This document shows positions 15,178 through 31,914 of a stretch of DNA of 31,914 nucleotides, one piece after another. A program made the translations under genes and the position numbers. This DNA comes from a virus: positions 1 to 31,914 of IMG/VR virus record IMGVR_UViG_3300025778_000056, one strand, 5' to 3'. The notes beneath the pieces were generated by a model that searched no databases, was not told where the DNA came from, and was given only the letters and a program-made list of their open reading frames with translations. The first letter of the stretch is position 1; each line of letters begins with the position of its first letter.

Positions 15178-15996
15178 TTATTGATTAGAGCTAGGGACAA
15201 CACCACCAGTGTTGAAATAACTTGCAATACCATTAGGTTGATTCAAGTTATAAGATGATCCTTGATTTACACCATTAGGGTTTCCAGAAGCTAATAAGGC
15301 TGAAAGTGTTAAGTTGTTGCCTATGCCAGAGGCAGTGTTTCCATACGCATTAGCCGCGCCTACTTGTCCTGCGGCCTGTGCGTTGGCTGACCCCACCCCA
15401 AGTTGTGCAATATTCGTTGCATTTCCTGTAGAAAGATTGGATAGCCCTGTAACAGCATTCTGACCAATACCAGCAATACCTGCTAACTTGTTATAGATGT
15501 TAGTTTGCTGAGTCTGACCTTGGTTAAAGGCTTGGTTTTGCTGACCCATGTAATTAGTCAAGGCATTTTGATATGCTCCTTGAGCAGTGTTTTGTGTATA
15601 GTCTTGTAAACCTTTAAGAGCATTACCACCAATAAGTCCACCAGTTGCATTGTTTGCTAGATTAGTAGCAGTTTGGCCTTGTTGCAATTGGAACTGGTAA
15701 TTAGGTGCTAGATTAGCATTCAGGTCTTGAGCTGTAAAAGGCTGATAAGTTGACGTTGGTGTTGTCAAATAAGGCATTTGCTGATTTAAACCAGCTAAAC
15801 CTTGTGCTCCAGTTTGCTGGTAAGGAGCATAATTAGGAGCAAGGTTTTGATAATTAGCTTGAAGTTGTTGTTGAGCATTTTGGGATGCGTTGGCTTGTGT
15901 CTGTGCCGCACTCTTGCTCGCATTCGCACTATTAATCCCACCCAACAAGTTAATACCTGCTGAAGCTAATAGTGCATCTCCTGTAGTAAAACCCAT
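15178..15996 (-). CDS. DNA-transfer (ejection) protein, P22 gp7-like
   Basis: The 272-residue protein has an N-terminal glycine-rich hydrophobic segment (ALLASAGINLLGG), an Ala/Gln-rich helix (SAAQTQANASQNAQQQLQANY), and a conserved middle with YAPYQQTGAQGLAGLN, PFTAQDL and PNYQFQLQQGQ. These phrases are typical of phage DNA-transfer proteins of the gp7/p33 type that leave the virion during infection. The rest is low-complexity Asn/Gln/Gly. The ATG at 15996 has AAAGGAG six bases upstream; a TTG two codons before it is too close to that site. First of three ejection-type genes in the P22 order. Confidence 0.75.
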   Translation of the reverse strand: MGFTTGDALLASAGINLLGGINSANASKSAAQTQANASQNAQQQLQANYQNLAPNYAPYQQTGAQGLAGLNQQMPYLTTPTSTYQPFTAQDLNANLAPNYQFQLQQGQTATNLANNATGGLIGGNALKGLQDYTQNTAQGAYQNALTNYMGQQNQAFNQGQTQQTNIYNKLAGIAGIGQNAVTGLSNLSTGNATNIAQLGVGSANAQAAGQVGAANAYGNTASGIGNNLTLSALLASGNPNGVNQGSSYNLNQPNGIASYFNTGGVVPSSNQ

Positions 15997-16026
15997 GATC
16001 AACTCCTTTGGCTTAATTATCGCCTT

Positions 16027-16470
16027 TTACAACAATTTGGTGAATACTTTATCAATACATTTAAAGCCCATAAATTCAAACAACTTTGAATTATCCAAAT
16101 GAACCTTTGTGTTGTAAACAATCCTATTCACACCCATTTCTTTTAACAGTTTTTCAGCAAACTGAAACATTCTTAAACCATTTCTGCCTTTTCGATATTC
16201 TTTTTTTAAAAAATAAATATCTTCTGAAGCAGTCAAACAAGTTTTGTAATGCAAATGTGGAGAAATAAAGAAAATCACATAACCAATAAGCTCATCATCT
16301 TGTTTACAAGTTATGAACTTCATTCTTCCACCTTGCCACAAATGCAAGTAAACATCCCAATCTGGGTCTAATGGAAACTCTTTAGTTACTGACAATTCCT
16401 CATAATGCTCAACAATGACCTTTTTTAGGTCTTCCAAATTTTCTAACCAATCATCATCTTTTAGAATCAT
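16027..16470 (-). CDS. GNAT-family acetyltransferase
   Basis: The 147-residue protein has the GNAT layout: an N-terminal helix-loop, a strand with MKFITCKQDDELIGYVIFFI (about 50-69), a strand EDIYFLKKEYRKGRNGLRMF (about 83-102) holding the acetyl-CoA-binding loop R-K-G-R-N-G, and a last strand/helix with NSKLFEFMGFKCIDKVFTKLL. Acetyl transfer to an unknown acceptor is the expected activity. Genes of this type occur within the head/tail block of several podovirus genomes; whether the target is a virion protein or a host molecule is unknown. It overlaps its upstream neighbour as ATGA. Confidence 0.8.
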   Translation of the reverse strand: MILKDDDWLENLEDLKKVIVEHYEELSVTKEFPLDPDWDVYLHLWQGGRMKFITCKQDDELIGYVIFFISPHLHYKTCLTASEDIYFLKKEYRKGRNGLRMFQFAEKLLKEMGVNRIVYNTKVHLDNSKLFEFMGFKCIDKVFTKLL

Positions 16471-16688: not shown

Positions 16689-19600
16689 TAGTTCTCTCCT
16701 TGACTAGCCTTGAGGTTAGCAGAAATGATCGTAGCATTCACTGGATCAGTTACCACTACCTCAAAAATCTTGTCCCTAGACCATCCTAAACGCCTCCAGA
16801 TGGCACGATTCTTGTACTTGCCAATTTTACCAATGGATACCCAGTGCTCCTTAGACCATGTTGATCCACCATCATTGGACCATCTGAGCATGGCTTTAGG
16901 ATCAACACCTTGTGAACCTTCAAAGGCAGGACTAGGAATATTGTAGGCAGGAAACTGTAAAGTCAAAGCATTCAGCAAGGCAGTAGCTGTTTGAGCACTT
17001 GTAACTTGATGGTTTGCTGTGTACTGTGTTGGATAGCCTCCAGAGCCATTTACAGGTGTTCCTACAGTGACTTGAGTTGTGGTAACCCTGTTAGTCAAAG
17101 CAGTAGTTAAATTGACTGCAAAAGGCTGTATTGACGTTGGAGGTGCAAGTGTGTCGTTAGTGTTGTACCAAATGTAGAAGTGGCACTTGTTAGTGTAAAA
17201 GCTAGGAATGGTTTCCCATGTAGCTAACTGATAGTAAGGACTTGCTGTCAGTGGTGTTGTGTTTGCTGTGTAGGTGTTGATCAATCCTACACCAAATGAT
17301 CCAATAGGATTCGTAGCATCACCAGCACCAATGGTTACTAAGTTCATTGGACCATACAAATTCATACATGCTTTAGGCCATGTGCCATTTGTCGTAGCTT
17401 GTGCCATGACACCTTCAATTGCAAGGTAACCACCAGCACTGTTGCCAGCTACCATAAGGCCAAATTGTGCTACTTGTTGTTGTAGACTTGCCCACAAAGC
17501 ATTTTGACTTGGTGCTCCTAAATAACCAGCATTAGGATTTAACAAGAAATTGATAACTTGAGCAATGTCATTTACGTCATTAGGATAGTCACCAGATGGA
17601 GTTAGCCTGTAGTTTGTAGAAATAACGACATAGTTAGCTAACACAATAGGATTGTAAATAGCAGTGTCACTAGCCTTGTCACCACCACTCCATCCACCAC
17701 CATGTATCCAAAGGACAACTCCATTAGGCATTTGACCATTCTTGTTGACAGCATCCCATGAGCTTGGGCTAATGATGTCTACTTTTTGAAGTGGGTCAGT
17801 CCCATAGGGTACGTCAGAAATTGTTGCACCTAAAGAAGGAGCACCTAAAGAAACTCCTGAAAAAGAAGTTGGAGTAGAGGATGGTATAGAGTAGCCTTGG
17901 CCTGTTTGAGAATTTCCACTGATTGCGTATCCTGAGATGGCAATGCCAGCTATGCCTGAAGTGGTATAACTTGCATTTGGGTTTGACAATCCCACTGCTG
18001 GCATAAACTGAATCTGCAATTCCTCAAAATATTGACGTTGCAAATCAGAAACCAAATGTGGTGCTCTCCTTAGTCTCCTAATCTCTTGACCATTGTCAGT
18101 GTAGTTATTAGGGTCTAACTCGTACAAATTACCATTTTGGTAGTCACCAACATAAACTAAACCATTAAATACAGCACAACAGTTGCCACGATGTCTGTGG
18201 TAAACATTATTATTATCTACAGCAAGCCACTTGTGCCACATGCCTGTGGTGTTGTCCCATACCCATGTCAAGTCAATACTTGGAAAGGTAATTACATAGC
18301 ACTCATGGCCTTCTAGTTGATAGGTCCAAGCAATAGCATCTGAGATGTTTTGGTTGACAAGGGTGTTTTCAACTGCGTGAGTGGAGATGCGAGTAGGCAC
18401 ATACCCATTCATCATTACAACTTGGCCTTGGCCTCGTTGGTTTCTAGAGAGGTATGCAAAGGAGTTGCCAACACGAGAGACTGAGAATTTGGCAATGATG
18501 CCATGCTGTGTGGAGGTGCCGGGGATTCGCTGGAAAGGAAACGGAAAGCTCCCCACATCCACCCACACCTCACTCGATACCTCACCTAGTAAGTACACCT
18601 CACGATGGTCAACAATTAGTGATACCAAGTTATCTGGAGCACCATCCTTGCTACTAAACTGCAAAGGAGCTGACAATGTGCTCAACAAATTACTCGATCC
18701 CCATTGCTGTGTATTTGGCCTGTTATAGACAAATATATTGTCCACAATGTCCACCACATCAGCACCTGTAAACGCTCCATCTGTGCTTGGCAAAATCGAA
18801 AAAGCAGAAGCAGTCAGTGTTGATAAGTTACCAAGTGGTGATATGTTAGCAAGGGCAGATGCTCCTGAACCTGATCCACCACTAAAATTCAAAGCAGGGT
18901 TTGATGTATAAAATGATCCACCATTAGCAATTGAATAATCATTGTTAAGGCTGAACGTCAAGGTTATAGAAGCACCTTTGCCTGTTCCACCACTGAATGA
19001 TGTAGCACCACTTGGAGCAACTGTGTAAGTTCCTACATTGTAAATAGAGACACCAGTAATCACACCACTAGAAACTGTTGTGACCTTGAGCTGACAAGCA
19101 GTTGTGTAAGTTCCACCAAAGCCAGTGATGATGTCACCAACTGTGTATCCTGTTCCACCAGATGTAATTGTTGTAGACACAACTCCTATTGAGTTCCAAG
19201 TCACTGATGCAACAGTACCACCAAAAGGAGGGTTAGCAATTGTGACTGAAGGGACTGTTGTATAACCTGTGCCAGCATTTAATAGATTAATTGCTACAAC
19301 ACTGCCATTGGTTACATAGTTGTTGATGGAGTAAAGACCTAAACCATTTCCACTTGTAGGGACTGAGGTAATGATCGTGTTTGGAGGTATGTTTGTGCCT
19401 GTGATGGTCTGACCAACTACCAAAGGTCCAGAAATAATGCCTGTGACATTGATCTGATAACCAGAGATATTACCAATGAAAGAAGTGGTAATGTAGGAGC
19501 TGATGTAAACACTGTACCTGTTAACACCATCTGTGATCATCACATAAAGGCCATTGTCAGCAATGCCAACTCTGCCTGTTGTAGTGGTGAGGTTACCAAG

Positions 19601-19876
19601 GGTAAAAAGGTTGCCAAGAGTATCAAGAGCATAAACACCAGAGCCACAGACTGCAATCAAGTATTTACCACCAGAAAGGGTGCGTAGGCCTCGAACTTCA
19701 GCAGTTTGGGGAAGGGCAGTTAACAGCGTGAGACCCGGCGTAGGGTAGAGTGCCACCACCCCCCTTTGACCTGCTTGCTTGAGTGGGTCTATTTCAGGGC
19801 GAAAGTTAATACACTCCTGATCATCTTGGTAGATGGATGGAGAAGTATACGATGGGCCAACAAACCCAAAGTCCAT
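16688..19876 (-). CDS. P22 gp10-like tail protein with inserted esterase domain
   Basis: The outer parts of this 1062-residue protein match the P22 gp10 (packaged-DNA stabilisation) family: MDFGFVGPSYTSPS...DDQECINFRPE at the start, VWVDVGSFPFPFQRIPGTSTQHGI (437-460), YQLEGHECYVITFP (519-532) and the C-terminal MLRWSNDGGSTWSKEHW (996-1012). Two insertions enlarge it. Residues about 132-345 form a beta-rich, Gly/Thr/Ser repeat region. Residues about 675-980 form an alpha/beta-hydrolase: HGGGW oxyanion motif (725-729), nucleophile elbow GNSAGG with Ser813, and candidate Asp908 and His956. The insertion lies between QFMPAVGL and the DPKAMLRWS segment, which normally are adjacent in the family. 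The protein would sit in the tail and expose an esterase, perhaps removing acyl groups from host surface glycans. That role is inferred. Confidence 0.85.
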   Translation of the reverse strand: MDFGFVGPSYTSPSIYQDDQECINFRPEIDPLKQAGQRGVVALYPTPGLTLLTALPQTAEVRGLRTLSGGKYLIAVCGSGVYALDTLGNLFTLGNLTTTTGRVGIADNGLYVMITDGVNRYSVYISSYITTSFIGNISGYQINVTGIISGPLVVGQTITGTNIPPNTIITSVPTSGNGLGLYSINNYVTNGSVVAINLLNAGTGYTTVPSVTIANPPFGGTVASVTWNSIGVVSTTITSGGTGYTVGDIITGFGGTYTTACQLKVTTVSSGVITGVSIYNVGTYTVAPSGATSFSGGTGKGASITLTFSLNNDYSIANGGSFYTSNPALNFSGGSGSGASALANISPLGNLSTLTASAFSILPSTDGAFTGADVVDIVDNIFVYNRPNTQQWGSSNLLSTLSAPLQFSSKDGAPDNLVSLIVDHREVYLLGEVSSEVWVDVGSFPFPFQRIPGTSTQHGIIAKFSVSRVGNSFAYLSRNQRGQGQVVMMNGYVPTRISTHAVENTLVNQNISDAIAWTYQLEGHECYVITFPSIDLTWVWDNTTGMWHKWLAVDNNNVYHRHRGNCCAVFNGLVYVGDYQNGNLYELDPNNYTDNGQEIRRLRRAPHLVSDLQRQYFEELQIQFMPAVGLSNPNASYTTSGIAGIAISGYAISGNSQTGQGYSIPSSTPTSFSGVSLGAPSLGATISDVPYGTDPLQKVDIISPSSWDAVNKNGQMPNGVVLWIHGGGWSGGDKASDTAIYNPIVLANYVVISTNYRLTPSGDYPNDVNDIAQVINFLLNPNAGYLGAPSQNALWASLQQQVAQFGLMVAGNSAGGYLAIEGVMAQATTNGTWPKACMNLYGPMNLVTIGAGDATNPIGSFGVGLINTYTANTTPLTASPYYQLATWETIPSFYTNKCHFYIWYNTNDTLAPPTSIQPFAVNLTTALTNRVTTTQVTVGTPVNGSGGYPTQYTANHQVTSAQTATALLNALTLQFPAYNIPSPAFEGSQGVDPKAMLRWSNDGGSTWSKEHWVSIGKIGKYKNRAIWRRLGWSRDKIFEVVVTDPVNATIISANLKASQGEN
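16937..17854 (-). other. Inserted alpha/beta-hydrolase (esterase) domain
   Basis: This stretch encodes residues about 675-980 of the gp10-like protein. It begins in a linker, enters with VPYGTDPLQKVDIISP (a start typical of acyl/feruloyl esterase-like hydrolases), has HGGGW, NYRLTP, GNSAGG, then WYNTNDTLAPP with the Asp and YTANHQ with the His. All catalytic parts are present in the right order. Boundaries are approximate. Confidence 0.8.
18842..19483 (-). other. Inserted beta-rich repeat region in the gp10-like protein
   Basis: Residues about 132-345 interrupt the family's N-terminal beta-propeller-like part. First comes a unit of about 60 residues (NISGYQINVTGIISG...GTNIPPNTIITS) that resembles the insertion in the gp4-like protein. 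Then come at least four looser units of the GxGYTxxPxVxI kind (around 202, 241, 282 and 320). Probably surface decoration or an adhesive module; function unknown. Confidence 0.6.
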
Positions 19877-21789
19877 TATAGGCCTACCTTTGCTAAGACT
19901 TCTTGCATTGCTTGGACTAAGTAAACAATTGCCATCGAGCTATCAACAGATTGATAAATTGGCTTTCCTGCCTCATCAACACCATTAGGACTTCCTGCCA
20001 CAGCAGTAGGAATCACTGTTTGCAACTCGTCAGCAATAAAGCCTACATCTGCTTCATTGTTTGAGTTCCAAGTAAATGATCTAGGTGTCAATTCTTTGAT
20101 CTTAGCTATGCCTTCACCTGATGTCAGATTAGCAATGTTTGACTTGAGTCTACGATCAGAAGTTGTTCCATAAGTTGTAGTTGTGCCATTTGTGCTGATT
20201 GCACCTACTGGAGTGACTGAACTTGGTGAGCCATAGCCAAAAAATGCCAAATTACTACCAGTGCTTGCTACTACTGAAGCAATTGCATTACTTGTTGAAC
20301 CACCAACATAAGCACCAAAAGCATTGGTTGAAGATGTTGTTGTCTGGGTATACAACTCAACAGTGTTAGCAAACGTACTTGCAGAACCAAAATAAGATGC
20401 TCCAGTGATTGCTAAACCACCAGAATAACTGTTACCAACAGCACACACAGATGCTAGGCTAGGCACAGTTCCAGTTGGAGTAGTCCACTGACCAGCATTA
20501 TTTAGATAAGTGGTAGTTGATCCTGCTGGTGCTGTAATTCCATAACTTCCCCAGTTAAACGTGCCAGTTAAATAAAAACTAGACCAAGCATAACTTGATG
20601 CTCCTAAGGTCAAGGCATTGTTACTAGCAGGAATGAATGAGGAGTTGTACAAGTACACCTGAGTAGTATTGTTGCCAATTCCAATGGTGCTTGCTGATGC
20701 TCCAATTCCATAAGTAGTACCAGCAGGACCACTAGAGCTAACACCTACACCAACACCACCAAACGTAGAGTTAGTCGTAGTGGTAATTCCACCAGAATAG
20801 GTGTTGCCAGCAGTTGCTACTTGTTGCAATGTAGGAGTTGTGGCTGTCACAGTAGCCCACGTTCCATCACCTCTTAAATAGGTGCTAGATGAGGCTGTGC
20901 CAGTTCCTAGATTAGCAGTAGGCACTTGGCCTGACCAACTTACAGAAAGTGTGCCATTCGAGGTTAAAGGGCTTCCTGAGACTGAGAATCCAGTAGGCAT
21001 GGATAAACCAACTGAAGTCAAACCTGTGCCTGATCCACTTGGAACTACCCAAGCTCCTTGGTTGTTTAAGAACTTGGTAGCATCACCAGTGGATGTGTTT
21101 GGAGCTGTAATGGTTGCGTTGCTCCAATAGAACGTACCAGCTACACCTAAAGATGACCACAATGAAGCAGGAGCACCTAAAGCTATGCCACTGTTACTTG
21201 ATGATCCATTTGAATAAGGTAAGAATGCAGAACCTGACAAAAGGACTGTGTAAGGTGTGCTTCCACCAAAGTTGCTTTGGATACCAACATAATTACCTGT
21301 TGAAGTAATACCATAAACAGTAGTACCTGATGGAGCATTTAATTGGTTACCAATACCTACACCACCAAAGGAGGCATTACCAGTTAAGGTGTTAGACCAA
21401 ATACCATCACCACGAACAAATGATGCGTTATTAGGTGTTCCACTAGCTAGATTAGCCACAGGCACTTGACCTGACCAAGTCACTGCTAAAGTTCCACTTG
21501 TCGTAATGGGTGAGCCTGAAACTGCTAAACCTGTTGGAACACTCAGAGCAACTGAGGTAACTGTGCCAGTTCCACCACCACCTCCTGATGGTGTTGCCCA
21601 AGTTCCATCATTTCTTAAAAAAGTGGTAGTTGAGCCAGTAGGAGCTGTGATTGTATATCCACCCCACACAGCAGTTGCGAATGTAATAGAGTTATTAGGA
21701 AAAGTGCCATTGTAGACAGTTGCATTAACGTCATTGAGCCATGATGCTCGTATGACTGTTGATCCATCAATAAAAGTTGTGCTAGCCAT
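19876..21789 (-). CDS. Tail fibre with S74 intramolecular chaperone
   Basis: The 637-residue fibre starts [23 protein letters not shown], a short virion-attachment type segment. The shaft has repeated units: GTGTVTSVALSVPTGLAVSGSPITTSGTL is followed by WSGQVPVANL, with a second copy about 170 residues later. The C-terminus (about 537-637) is a peptidase S74 domain with TSDRRLKSNI, LTPRSFTWN, DVGFIADELQ and a final helix with IVYLVQAMQEV. S74 domains help trimer folding and then cut themselves off just before the Ser of SDRR (Ser544). The ATG at 21789 overlaps the upstream stop (TAATG); a start nine codons earlier is less likely. Expected to bind the host surface. Confidence 0.85.
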   Translation of the reverse strand: MASTTFIDGSTVIRASWLNDVNATVYNGTFPNNSITFATAVWGGYTITAPTGSTTTFLRNDGTWATPSGGGGGTGTVTSVALSVPTGLAVSGSPITTSGTLAVTWSGQVPVANLASGTPNNASFVRGDGIWSNTLTGNASFGGVGIGNQLNAPSGTTVYGITSTGNYVGIQSNFGGSTPYTVLLSGSAFLPYSNGSSSNSGIALGAPASLWSSLGVAGTFYWSNATITAPNTSTGDATKFLNNQGAWVVPSGSGTGLTSVGLSMPTGFSVSGSPLTSNGTLSVSWSGQVPTANLGTGTASSSTYLRGDGTWATVTATTPTLQQVATAGNTYSGGITTTTNSTFGGVGVGVSSSGPAGTTYGIGASASTIGIGNNTTQVYLYNSSFIPASNNALTLGASSYAWSSFYLTGTFNWGSYGITAPAGSTTTYLNNAGQWTTPTGTVPSLASVCAVGNSYSGGLAITGASYFGSASTFANTVELYTQTTTSSTNAFGAYVGGSTSNAIASVVASTGSNLAFFGYGSPSSVTPVGAISTNGTTTTYGTTSDRRLKSNIANLTSGEGIAKIKELTPRSFTWNSNNEADVGFIADELQTVIPTAVAGSPNGVDEAGKPIYQSVDSSMAIVYLVQAMQEVLAKVGL

Positions 21790-22757
21790 TAAATAAAGCC
21801 TCCATGCAAAATCCAACCAGCATCACGAGTCTTGGTTGAGGTTAATACGTTGTCGTACCTTGCCAAAATGGGAGGTCTCATATTAGTTCTCTTGACTGTG
21901 CTCTTGCCTGTCATTGCATTCTTCTGAATCATTGCAATCTGAGTAGCACTAGCCTTGCCATACATAGGCATCAAATACTCTGCTAGATTCCACCTCAAAG
22001 CCATGTTATAGCCCTCTGGCAATGCAATAACATCGTACATTGTTGTGAATCGAGTAAAGATGTTGTCAGCAAACAAGTGGACTTCACCTTGACTAGGATT
22101 AGGCCACAAAAAGATGTTTCCTAGTGTCTCTGTAGGCTGATAATAGACTGCTTTAGGCCAAGGACCATTGAGTGTTTTAAGCCCAATCATCTCGTATTCT
22201 TCAACATTGAGCACTGAAACTGGGTAATCTAATCTACCTCCAGTGATGGCAACACCATTGGAATTGGTGTTTACCCCTACAAAAGCACTATTAATGGTCA
22301 ATGGTCTCTTGTAATAGCCCACAATCGTAGTAGATGGCACGTTTTGGCTGACATTGAGCAGATATGTGCCAGCTTCAAGGATTTGTCCACCAGCTCCAGT
22401 GCCAAATCCAACAATCGTAGTTCCTGCAATGATTCCTGTGCCTTGCAAGACCATATTCATGGATATAGCACCAGAATTGATGGAGGAAACAGTTAGGATA
22501 TTGCCATTGATTGAGCCAACAAAGTTAGCCTGAATTGATCCAGTTGGACCTATTGAGTATTGGGTTTGGCCTTGAGTGACATTGAAGACGATTTCAGTCT
22601 TGTAGTAGACCATTTGAGACTCGTTAGACCATTGATCTAACATGTCTAATAGCATGTCAAAAGCATCTTGGGCAGATTCTGGTGTGGGAATCTCCCCTGC
22701 CTCAAGTGCTCCAATGTCCTTGAGTGCTCTGCTAACAATGTCAATAGGCATCACCAT
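21789..22757 (-). CDS. P22 gp4-like tail accessory (head-to-tail adaptor) protein
   Basis: The 322-residue protein has the gp4-type start [40 protein letters not shown] (7-46). Further family phrases are [19 protein letters not shown] (53-71), [17 protein letters not shown] and the segment with [24 protein letters not shown]22 gp4 binds below the portal and lets the tail assemble. An insertion of about 70 residues (about 76-148, DNA 22314-22532) interrupts it after the YSIGP strand; it resembles one in the gp10-like protein. The ATG at 22757 follows GGGGG, which overlaps the previous stop. A second ATG two codons in is possible. Confidence 0.85.
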
Positions 22758-23593: not shown

Positions 23594-25891
23594 TTAGAAT
23601 GCGTTACTGTAAGCAAATGGATTTGATGCAAAGGCGGCATAAATGTAGGTATAGCCACTTAAATTAGTGTCGCCACCATTGTAGTCACCAACTAATTGAA
23701 ATCCATTTGATAGACCATTGATACCATTTGAACCTGTTGATGCCTCAGCGTTTGAACTATTGGGTTGCAATCTTAATGCTTCAAGATTGTATGGACTTCT
23801 TGATGTGTCAAATACTGTCCAACTACCGCCACCACTAGGGCCTGACAATCTAACCATTACCCATTTAGGTTGAAATCCAGTATAAATAAATTGATTAGAT
23901 GAATTACCAGAATAAGTACCAAACGAACTAAACCCAGCTACTGGTGCGAAACAATAAGAAACAATATTATCTCCATTTGTATACCAAGACGATCCAATTG
24001 AAAATACTGATGATGTTGGTGTGGTGTTATTCCAAACATTTTCAACGTCTGGAATGGCAGATGAGTTTAATATTGCACGTTTTGTATTTCCAATAGAAAC
24101 ATGGTAAACATCCCAGTTATATGTTCCGCTTGTTCTGTCTTTTTGGATAATCATTTGTGGAACTGCACCAAGTCCATGCCCTATTGTTCCACTTCCATTG
24201 TAAGTCCAAGTAACAATACTAAACCCAGCAGTAGTGCTTACAGATACTGTTGAATTAATTGTTCCATTACTATTCGCTCCAGATGCGTTTTGTGCATTCC
24301 AAACCCATGCAACACAATTATCTGATGATGTTGGGGCAGAATATGTTGTTTCTGCACTTGTGGTGTTGGACTGAATTACATTTGATGTTCCACGAACTGT
24401 ATCTACTAATTGATTGTTATTAGATGATGTTCTGTCTTTGCCCCATGCCAAGCCATATGTAAAGCCAGACTGAGAAAATAAATTAGCACCTGTATTGACT
24501 GCTGAACCCAATTGTAATACTGCGTTCATATAAACATTACCCTGTGGAATACTAGGTGTGGGTAAGTTGTATGTGTTGAGTGCGTTATATCCTGATGGTG
24601 GTGTGTAGGTGAATGGTTGTTGACCAAAGTTTGCAGTACCTGTTGATGCACCACCACTTGTCCGTGTGGACATGGTAAAGAAATATGTTCCTGATGTTAA
24701 ACCTGTAAATGCAGTACCTTGGCTTGTACCATTTTTATAAAATGTTAATGTGCCAGCTCCAGCATCAAATGCAACACCAATTAAATCTCCAGATGTATAT
24801 GTTGCACCATAAGCAGAACCTGAACCATTGTTATATTTATTACCACTAGTGTAATATCCCCAAGATGTTGAAGTACCTCCAACATAATTAGAACTTCCTT
24901 GATCTGTGCAAATTCCAACAGAAAATTCAGAACCTAATGTAACGCAAGTTAATTCACAATAATATTTTCCTGATGCAGACATCCCCATAGTAGATGCTAC
25001 ATATTGACTAACACCTGAAGAACCACTTTGGTTTAAATTTCCATTGGTAATAGTTGGGCCAGAATTGGCATTAGGATTGATGACACAATAATTAGCCGCA
25101 GTTGCACTATACGCTACTGGCACATCATTCATACTGTCGTATGTTGCCCCAGCACTTAAACTAATTCCTGTTGTAGTCCAGTTATTACTATTGCCTGATT
25201 GGTCATATCCTAATGTGGTTGTAGATGTCGTGTTTGCAAATGTTAGATGGAATCCATTAGTACCATAAGTGCCTGTGTACTTTGCTGGACTCCATTGGCC
25301 TGTTGTTGCGTTGGTAGATGCAAATGATGATGGAGTTAATGCTTGGCCATCAATAAAATTTATATCGGTTAAATACCCATCCAAATAGTTTGCCGTTCCA
25401 AAAGATTGACTTCCTATTGCATGATTTGCTGATTGATTTATTCCTAAATTTGAATTTTGGGTTATAGAGCTTCTGTTATCAGTTGAAAATGCAGTAACTT
25501 GTAAACCATTAACATAAACTTTTATTCTGTTTGTAGCAGTAGATTGCGTTGTATCTAATGCAACAACAATATGATACCAAGCTGATGTATCACGAAATAT
25601 CTGTGTTGTACTCAAAAAATATGTGAGCCATCCACTTACATAAAAAGTATCGCCATAGAAAAAAATACCCAACCAACCTGTATCTGTGTTTGTGACTCCA
25701 CCAGAAAACAAGGTGTATTGTGGTGTTCCTAATAAACCTCTTTTAACCCAACCACTCCATGTCCATGTTTGACGATTAGTGGAAGATGATGGAGTTCTAT
25801 TTAAATAGGCAGACGCACTACTTCTAAATCTTAAAGACTTAGATAACAATCCACCACTTACAGGTGCAGATGATTTGCGACTACTAAACAT
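23594..25891 (-). CDS. Large fibre/adhesin: LamG-like, SPRY-like and DUF7483-like domains
   Basis: The 765-residue protein has three recognisable parts. Residues about 15-200 form a LamG/concanavalin-type sandwich (TWTWSGWVKRG, TSAWYHIVVALD, IKVYVNGLQV, YLDGYLTDINFIDGQAL). Residues about 300-425 resemble a SPRY/B30.2 domain (GKYYCELTCVT, FSVGICTD, GDLIGVAFDAGAGTLTFYKNG). Residues about 545-760 match a domain I know from marine phages as DUF7483 (GTIGHGLGAVPQMIIQKDRTSG, NVWNNTTPTSSVF, VSYCFAPVAGFSSFGTY, and a final AFASNPFAYSNAF). All are binding folds, so it is likely a host-receptor or glycan-binding fibre. Overlap with the upstream gene is TAATG. Confidence 0.75.
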   Translation of the reverse strand: MFSSRKSSAPVSGGLLSKSLRFRSSASAYLNRTPSSSTNRQTWTWSGWVKRGLLGTPQYTLFSGGVTNTDTGWLGIFFYGDTFYVSGWLTYFLSTTQIFRDTSAWYHIVVALDTTQSTATNRIKVYVNGLQVTAFSTDNRSSITQNSNLGINQSANHAIGSQSFGTANYLDGYLTDINFIDGQALTPSSFASTNATTGQWSPAKYTGTYGTNGFHLTFANTTSTTTLGYDQSGNSNNWTTTGISLSAGATYDSMNDVPVAYSATAANYCVINPNANSGPTITNGNLNQSGSSGVSQYVASTMGMSASGKYYCELTCVTLGSEFSVGICTDQGSSNYVGGTSTSWGYYTSGNKYNNGSGSAYGATYTSGDLIGVAFDAGAGTLTFYKNGTSQGTAFTGLTSGTYFFTMSTRTSGGASTGTANFGQQPFTYTPPSGYNALNTYNLPTPSIPQGNVYMNAVLQLGSAVNTGANLFSQSGFTYGLAWGKDRTSSNNNQLVDTVRGTSNVIQSNTTSAETTYSAPTSSDNCVAWVWNAQNASGANSNGTINSTVSVSTTAGFSIVTWTYNGSGTIGHGLGAVPQMIIQKDRTSGTYNWDVYHVSIGNTKRAILNSSAIPDVENVWNNTTPTSSVFSIGSSWYTNGDNIVSYCFAPVAGFSSFGTYSGNSSNQFIYTGFQPKWVMVRLSGPSGGGSWTVFDTSRSPYNLEALRLQPNSSNAEASTGSNGINGLSNGFQLVGDYNGGDTNLSGYTYIYAAFASNPFAYSNAF

Positions 25892-30572: not shown

Positions 30573-31667
30573 TTAAGCTGCAACACGGCAAGCGAGTTCA
30601 GGATAAAGCGGGGCCCAGCCATACAACACATCTAAACGCGTAGGAATACTATCGTTATTGATGGTGTACTGACGAACCACACGCATTGACAAACCGATTT
30701 CCTTGTCAGAAGCGCGACCAGCAAAGTGGACACCCTCTGGCAACTCAAGATCAGCGACTGCCAATGTGAACGCATTGCGGTGCATAATGATATTCTGTGG
30801 TGAGACAGTACCAGTATTGTTGAAAGGTGTTACTGTTGAAGCACCAGCGTTAGTCACGCTAACGTTCTGGAACTGACCAGCAGTAATCACGGCAGGGCTA
30901 ACAGTCACGCTTGTAGTGCCTGATGTTGCCACAGTAGCGGCAGCAGTAACAACAAAGTTGCGTAGCTTGTTAGAACCATAAGCCTGGCGATTCTGGGGGT
31001 TGACAGCGTACACGTTAGCAATTTGGATAACGTCACCAACGTTCAACGATGCGCTTGCAGTTGTTGCTGACAAGGCGATAGTTGAAGATGATGCCCAACC
31101 AGAGGTTAGGAATCCAGTTGCAGTCGATGTATTGCATGACAACACGGCAGTCGAATAAGAACCGAATGTTTGTGAAACAACGTTCTGATCCATCTTCCAG
31201 TTCATACCAGCAGAGTCACGACCCATCAAACCCTTGCGATACTGTTCGCCAATTGCTTCTTGGGGCACAAATAGACCCTTCAAAGAATCAACGATTGTGG
31301 CGCTTGTGAAAGGTTCAACGATACATGAGCGGCGGCCATCCCTAGGTGCGCCTTCAGCGTCAAGGTAAGCAGCAGCAGTCAAGTATGTGATCAAACCTGT
31401 AGGAGGTGTACCAGCTGTACCAACGATATTGGCCGTGTTGTTCTTGGCCATCACCAAGCCGTCACGATCAATCTTGTTAGCAATAGCTGCAACAGCGGGT
31501 TTCAACACGCGGTCACTAAACATATCAAGACTTAGCGCCAAATCTTGCGTGGTGAATTGAGTATCAACGTGGAATTGAGTGCTCAAAGTCACGGGTACGC
31601 TAGACTCATTAAAGTCTTCAACATTCAAAGCCGGGCCTGTTGTCCCGATGAACCTTCCGGGTCGTCT
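30573..31667 (-). CDS. Major capsid protein, P22 coat-like, 3' exon
   Basis: The 364-residue part seen is RRPGRFIGTTGPALNVEDFNESSVPVTL..., which matches the P22 coat (gene 5) family from about its residue 60 on. Family phrases are TGPALNVxDxxExSVPxTL, LSLDMFSDRVLKPAVAAIANKID (about 46-68), the middle I-domain-like part, SPQNIIMHRNAFTLAVADLELPEGV (about 286-310), and the C-terminal QYTINNDSIPTRLDVLYGW. P22 coat is about 430 residues, so about 60 N-terminal residues are missing here. They should lie in a 5' exon to the right, because the sequence just upstream is not coding and folds as a group I intron. The frame ends at TAA near 30573. Translation from the GTG at 31668-31670 is not expected. 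Confidence 0.85.
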   Translation of the reverse strand, partial: RRPGRFIGTTGPALNVEDFNESSVPVTLSTQFHVDTQFTTQDLALSLDMFSDRVLKPAVAAIANKIDRDGLVMAKNNTANIVGTAGTPPTGLITYLTAAAYLDAEGAPRDGRRSCIVEPFTSATIVDSLKGLFVPQEAIGEQYRKGLMGRDSAGMNWKMDQNVVSQTFGSYSTAVLSCNTSTATGFLTSGWASSSTIALSATTASASLNVGDVIQIANVYAVNPQNRQAYGSNKLRNFVVTAAATVATSGTTSVTVSPAVITAGQFQNVSVTNAGASTVTPFNNTGTVSPQNIIMHRNAFTLAVADLELPEGVHFAGRASDKEIGLSMRVVRQYTINNDSIPTRLDVLYGWAPLYPELACRVAA

Positions 31668-31914
31668 CACATTTCAAACCCTGTTACTTTCGGCATTTCA
31701 GCCTACTGACCATTGCTGGCGGGGAAACTTCTTCGAATCTCCCTCTGTGGTTTCATGCTTAGTTATAGCCACAGTTCAGACTATCGCTTACACCTTTCGA
31801 TGTCCCTCTCACTTAGTCGTTCAGGCTGCTTTCGCTTGCCCCTTGTTACCTACTACTAGGACTCCAAGTCAATCAGAGAGGGTTTATACACAGCAAATAT
31901 GATCCTACTGTGTT
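31668..31914 (-). ncRNA. Group I self-splicing intron in the coat gene (3' part; runs off right edge)
   Basis: On the minus strand this stretch forms the group I core in the right order. P2: ACACAG/CUGUGU (31913-31908 with 31893-31888). P3: CCCUCUC/GAGAGGG (31882-31876 with 31810-31804). P5-like hairpin CCUA/UAGG and a P6-like hairpin with a GAAA loop (near 31828-31835). P7: GACUA/UAGUC (31818-31814 with 31783-31779). P8: ACAUC-GAAA-GGUGU (31803-31790). P9: CUGUGG/CCACAG (31774-31769 with 31750-31745). The 3' splice site is at about 31668, where the intron's last G precedes AGACGACCC of the exon. P1 and the 5' splice site lie beyond the edge. No protein frame is visible in this part. Confidence 0.85.

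Follow-up and report, generated by a model that had tools for sequence, protein, structure and literature searches.

Gene context and identity of the hub protein

The window analyzed here covers positions 1 to 31,914 of the IMG/VR virus record IMGVR_UViG_3300025778_000056. Its minus strand carries an open reading frame (ORF) for 1,062 amino acids, uninterrupted by stops, whose product is a P22 gp10-type tail hub/nozzle protein (Table 1). This identity is assigned because the protein matches PHROG 578 (head closure Hc3, the P22 gp10 family) and its modeled core matches P22 gp10. The PHROG 578 profile matched the protein in three stretches (E value of 2.9e-96 for the whole protein), the best of which spans residues 356 to 634. 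A full-length AlphaFold2 (AF2) model, built with 40 viral-contig sequences, was confident for approximately residues 50 to 600, with a pLDDT of ~70 to 92 in the propeller and insert 1. Comparison of this core by VIA-align gave P22 gp10 (8eap, Z 34.8; 8u10, Z 34.1, rmsd 3.0, 328 residues), with further matches to Pan3, Sf6 gp8, and Pam1, and then to the crAss001 muzzle, the Pa223 tail, and the SU10 nozzle. At the sequence level, residues 990 to 1062 align across the family and, by way of the insert-free profile, with the C termini of Pan3, Pam1, Sf6, and P22.

The surrounding genes are compatible with this identity. The window hub resembles P22 gp10 and other PHROG 578 proteins (Sf6 gp8 and those of the cyanophages Pam1 and Pan3) in its fold, its conserved N- and C-terminal segments, and the comparable placement of its gene among those for the adaptor, fibre, and ejection proteins. 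In contrast, the family members with solved structures have 442 to 472 amino acids, with a short loop at the esterase site and without an enzyme domain. The protein would form a hexamer on the adaptor ring of a short-tailed P22-gp10-like phage.

Table 1. Features of the hub gene and neighboring genes in the window
Feature	Position	Strand	Basis or remark
gp10-type tail hub/nozzle protein, two inserts, 1062 aa	16688..19876	-	PHROG 578 profile; AF2 core vs P22 gp10
N-terminal hub segment, residues 1-127 (platform and propeller start)	19496..19876	-	Aligned in all insert-free members
Insert 1, residues 128-354, beta-rich	18815..19495	-	Common to most close relatives, missing in ~500-aa members
Hub core, residues 355-629 (remaining propeller, first platform strands)	17990..18814	-	
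Variable loop TSGIAGIAISGYAISGN, residues 630-656	17909..17989	-	Also in insert-free sister clade
Esterase insert and linkers, residues 657-989	16910..17908	-	~8 residues instead in sister clade (L009-L014, L023)
Esterase domain as modeled, residues 680-985, BD-FAE/Abhydrolase_3 fold	16922..17839	-	AF2 and VIA-align
HGGGW oxyanion motif, residues 725-729	17690..17704	-	H, G, G, W invariant in 72 bacterial relatives
GNSAGG nucleophile elbow with Ser813, starting at residue 811	17429..17446	-	Ser in 72/72 bacterial relatives
Catalytic Asp908 (predicted)	17153..17155	-	Asp in 71/72 bacterial relatives
Catalytic His956 (predicted)	17009..17011	-	His in 72/72 bacterial relatives
C-terminal hub segment (platform beta-sandwich end), residues 990-1062	16691..16909	-	70-84% identical in most insert-free relatives
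DNA-ejection-family protein, downstream of hub	15178-16002		
S74-chaperone fibre, upstream of hub	19876-21816		
SU10-adaptor-family protein	21789-22757	-	
Major head protein	30573-31670		

Insertion site and relatives with and without the esterase

At least 78 hub loci were collected from IMG/VR. The closest phage records (hub 60 to 64% identical) lack both inserts, and the IMG/VR members comprise proteins of ~500 amino acids with neither insert and proteins of 650 to 840 amino acids with insert 1 only. The esterase was carried by seven of the collected records representing three genotypes, namely the window and L006 (DNA identical in the hub gene), L002/L003/L007, and L004/L005; the L008 and L059 loci stop before the insertion site. 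In the sister clade (70 to 73% identical), the same hub has a short loop of ~36 residues at the site, and the start of this loop, TSAVAGIAIAGLAVSGN, is still recognizable in the window as TSGIAGIAISGYAISGN, directly before the esterase.

An earlier note on this DNA had described a complete esterase domain inside a gp10-like tail protein, between two segments that are normally adjacent. Both points hold, as the domain exceeds the cut-offs of two Pfam families, its flanks belong to PHROG 578, and in minimal insert-free members these flanks join directly at the junction GVGL-TTGQG-xNPQAMLRW. The box of residues 675 to 980 that the note drew does contain the domain and is slightly small, since the sequence missing in relatives covers residues ~657 to 989. 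Among the checks that the note had proposed, a search of relatives for the hub with and without the insert found both forms, and a structure prediction returned an alpha/beta-hydrolase fold. The HGGGW and GNSAGG (Ser813) motifs, Asp908, and His956 are all at the positions it had given; the second insert (residues 128 to 354) was absent from it.

As the window is a viral contig of metagenomic origin, assembly could have misjoined the hub gene to an esterase gene from a bacterium or a phage. However, the identical in-frame fusion occurs at the same site on six other contigs, the three genotypes are 85 to 90% identical, and the sequence is free of stops, with purifying selection acting on either side of the junction. 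Consequently, we give an assembly artefact practically no credence.

The loop at this site varies in length across the family, which suggests that it is exposed. Among 244 sampled members, it had at most 12 residues in 106, 13 to 60 in 120, and 61 to 101 in 10, and ~362 residues were found only in eight esterase-bearing loci, some of which are one contig retrieved repeatedly. This sample comprises the best-scoring or first-found matches listed, so other large enzymes at the loop may exist in the family; within the sample, none was found. Stretches of 68 to 101 amino acids at the same place (L288, L304, L316, L317, L337, L347, L352, L264, L297, and L290) appear by eye to be of low complexity or repetitive, and some contain short repeats resembling TTEAGD/TESG. 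A search of viral contigs with the esterase alone found only the window's own lineage.

By homology, on which the position of the esterase rests because the full-length model is not confident after residue 603, the insertion site would be a variable loop of the head-proximal platform, in the C-terminal half of that domain. The enzyme does lie within the hub ORF, as the earlier note had it, with its site now refined to this platform loop rather than the tail tip. In SU10, it is the platform domain that contacts the adaptor ring (PMC9509320).

Family, fold, and predicted catalytic residues of the esterase domain

The insert at residues 657 to 989 holds a complete BD-FAE/Abhydrolase_3 esterase domain. 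Pfam BD-FAE (PF20434) matched residues 711 to 852 (E value of 1.2e-15, 58.1 bits against a cut-off of 26.8), and Abhydrolase_3 matched residues 721 to 843 above its own Pfam cut-off. The NCBIfam equivalogs and subfamilies of hormone-sensitive lipases (HSL; LipP1 and others) stayed below their cut-offs, the best reaching 43.8 bits against 350. The insert is not an SGNH/GDSL hydrolase, its fold and motifs being those of BD-FAE/HSL-type alpha/beta hydrolases.

The predicted catalytic residues were compared with 72 bacterial relatives, ~70 from genome contigs and two from plasmids. His956 is the weakest-aligned member of the triad because ~12 extra residues precede it in the phage esterases; its alignment varies with the set of rows chosen, and the AF2 model is also weak in this loop. 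Genotype L004 (L004:4001-7177) has HAGSW in place of HGGGW and retains the Ser, Asp, and His.

The lack of confident structure past residue 603 in the full-length model is probably due to there being just three distinct esterase-bearing sequences, and therefore the esterase was modeled separately. A joint model of residues 590 to 1062 with mixed rows was dropped, as MAFFT drew bacterial termini onto hub columns, and no usable pattern emerged from a diverse alignment (A2). The separate model (residues 680 to 985; 72 rows including 70 bacterial relatives, plasmid-derived rows left out) reached a pLDDT of 77.9 and a pTM of 0.84, with the strand and helix order of an alpha/beta hydrolase. Ser813 is placed at the turn between strand 128-133 and helix 135-151 (model numbering), and the model is weak near residues 939 to 953 (model 260 to 274). 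Its top VIA-align match was BD-FAE (6xyc, Z 24.4, rmsd 3.0, 249 residues; 6tkx, Z 24.2), a bifunctional feruloyl/acetyl xylan esterase that deacetylates and deferuloylates xylans (PMC8165983). The two share the fold, the Ser-Asp-His triad, and an HGGG-type motif, although BD-FAE is a free-standing bacterial enzyme, only ~18% identical over the structural alignment, whereas the insert sits inside a hub.

Carboxylesterases and lipases of the HSL type matched the model at practically equal Z, and this close resemblance to lipases and general carboxylesterases makes a lipid or other ester substrate possible. The esterase might then act on periplasmic or membrane lipids or on O-acetylated peptidoglycan during genome entry, to which the closeness of the hub to the envelope would be suited. 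A rumen lipase indeed heads the relatives with known structure in the profile search, yet a GH43-CE enzyme and BD-FAE follow at near scores, with three carbohydrate esterase entries in that range. Furthermore, a platform position away from the tip, as judged by homology to SU10 (PMC9509320), better suits surface glycans, and we regard these other targets as unlikely.

Origin and selection

In a tree of the hub core only, the three esterase genotypes form one clade (support of 1.0), sister to the short-loop clade. Since the carriers are monophyletic, the esterase was gained once in this lineage. The third-position GC content (GC3) is 0.30 in the esterase and 0.27 in insert 1, against 0.42 to 0.45 in the hub core, as expected if both inserts had a history distinct from that of the core.

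Between genotypes, the esterase retains 78 to 90% protein identity with a dN/dS of 0.04 to 0.11 (dS of 1.2 to 1.9), and the N-terminal linker has a dN/dS of ~0.4 to 0.9; these NG86 ratios are rough, with dS near or above saturation. Such purifying selection on the esterase speaks for a functional enzyme. On occasion, an enzyme fold is reused for binding, and the altered oxyanion motif of L004 could be read in the same sense, with a catalytically dead domain kept as a structural or binding module, for instance as a glycan-binding decoration of the hub. However, the Ser, Asp, and His are kept in all three genotypes despite drift of the domain to 78% identity, and the low dN/dS also speaks against a dead module, which we hold to be improbable.

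The stretch from residue 631 to residue 709 offers no start codon, and the esterase is therefore not expected as a separate product. This bears on whether the esterase could be a cargo enzyme (moron) that acts inside the infected cell, with the hub fusion as its delivery vehicle. A variable cargo gene does lie just downstream of the hub; in the window it encodes a GNAT acetyltransferase, and in L002, L004, L009, and L012 it looks cupin-like by eye. However, hub proteins of the gp10 family remain with the virion, as is generally known for P22, and the esterase lacks a start of its own, which makes a cargo role very unlikely.

Proposed role and comparison with known systems

We consider it likely that the hub carries a virion-borne, six-copy deacetylase that acts on host surface glycans, by analogy with the tailspike deacetylases of other phages. 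One ancestor of the lineage would have taken a BD-FAE-type carbohydrate esterase into an exposed platform-domain loop of variable length, and the hub would still assemble with it because the core is unchanged. Each virion would then display six esterase domains on the outside of the tail, around the adaptor/hub junction. During adsorption, these would most likely strip O-acetyl groups, or acyl groups like them, off the host surface polysaccharide, easing the passage of the tail across the glycan layer or uncovering the separate fibre's receptor. As a first guess from the relative P26218, the host may be a freshwater betaproteobacterium such as Rhodoferax.

Enzymes on phage tails are common, and T4 gp5 has a lysozyme domain built into the tail hub. 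The T4 and window hubs are alike in bearing an enzyme domain, but T4 gp5 belongs to the central spike of a long contractile tail, and its lysozyme has an unrelated fold and targets peptidoglycan. Virion deacetylases on spikes and fibres act on host polysaccharide (PMC8471582, PMC11654681), and those of G7C (gp63.1), Aristophanes (gp41), PP99, and Moo19/B2 do the same work as proposed here. However, these are separate adsorption proteins, none of them in the hub, and Aristophanes gp41 has an SGNH/GDSL fold. The window esterase, in contrast, is not carried by a spike or fibre protein of its own with a particle-binding N terminus and lies inside the hub ORF.

In the literature searched, which covered few subscription journals, we came across no gp10-type hub/nozzle protein with an enzyme inserted in it. 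The earlier opinion that this is not a standard design calls for some qualification in view of T4 gp5 and of tail tubular protein A from Klebsiella phage KP32, a reported dual-function tail protein (PMC5440376). It is possible, and we propose it tentatively, that this is the first catalytic domain inserted in a podovirus hub/nozzle, that the variable platform loop serves generally as a plug-in site, and that the six-copy deacetylase replaces an esterase tailspike.

Virion glycan-modifying enzymes are usually sought in spikes and fibres. If a hub can carry one, annotation based on tailspikes overlooks part of the depolymerase and deacetylase repertoire. The platform loop would then become a natural candidate for the display of a domain, in six copies per short tail, that leaves the fibre genes untouched. 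Moreover, the sister clades with and without the esterase make its effect on adsorption directly testable.

Insert 1 and other genes of the locus

An insert at the place of insert 1 (after match state 111) was present in 102 of 283 ORFs. By analogy with SU10 (PMC9509320), it probably fills the slot of the nozzle domain, which lies between blades 2 and 3 of the propeller. Large domain insertions are known in this architecture from SU10 gp17 (PMC9509320) and the crAss001 muzzle gp44 (PMC10172136). These share with the window hub a nozzle architecture with large inserts, but theirs are Ig-like or "crass" domains without an enzyme, on the propeller or distal side, at a site different from the esterase loop. 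Insert 1 resembles parts of several virion protein families (virion structural PHROGs), among them head decoration and baseplate wedge proteins, and in L077 a second ORF matches hub residues 132 to 192. A stretch of this kind also seems to be inserted in the adaptor, because adaptor residues ~76 to 146 and insert 1 match one region of phrog_21413 (profile positions 398 to 464 and 402 to 472, respectively).

An exchangeable gene lies between a conserved ~73-amino-acid post-hub gene and the ejection-protein gene. In the window, it encodes the GNAT acetyltransferase (16027-16470, minus strand), and the apparently cupin-like genes of relatives are at L002:7395-7730, L004:7398-7859, L009:6229-6723, and L012:6413-6751; Xanthomonas phage PBR31 has an acetyltransferase near the equivalent place. 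A functional pairing of the esterase with the downstream acetyltransferase was rejected, as tblastn found no GNAT in the esterase-bearing L002, L004, and L007, and GNAT is present in the esterase-free L035, L037, and L052 to L054. Elsewhere in the window, a virion-type protein of 765 amino acids (23594-25891, minus strand) contains a SPRY domain followed by DUF7483.
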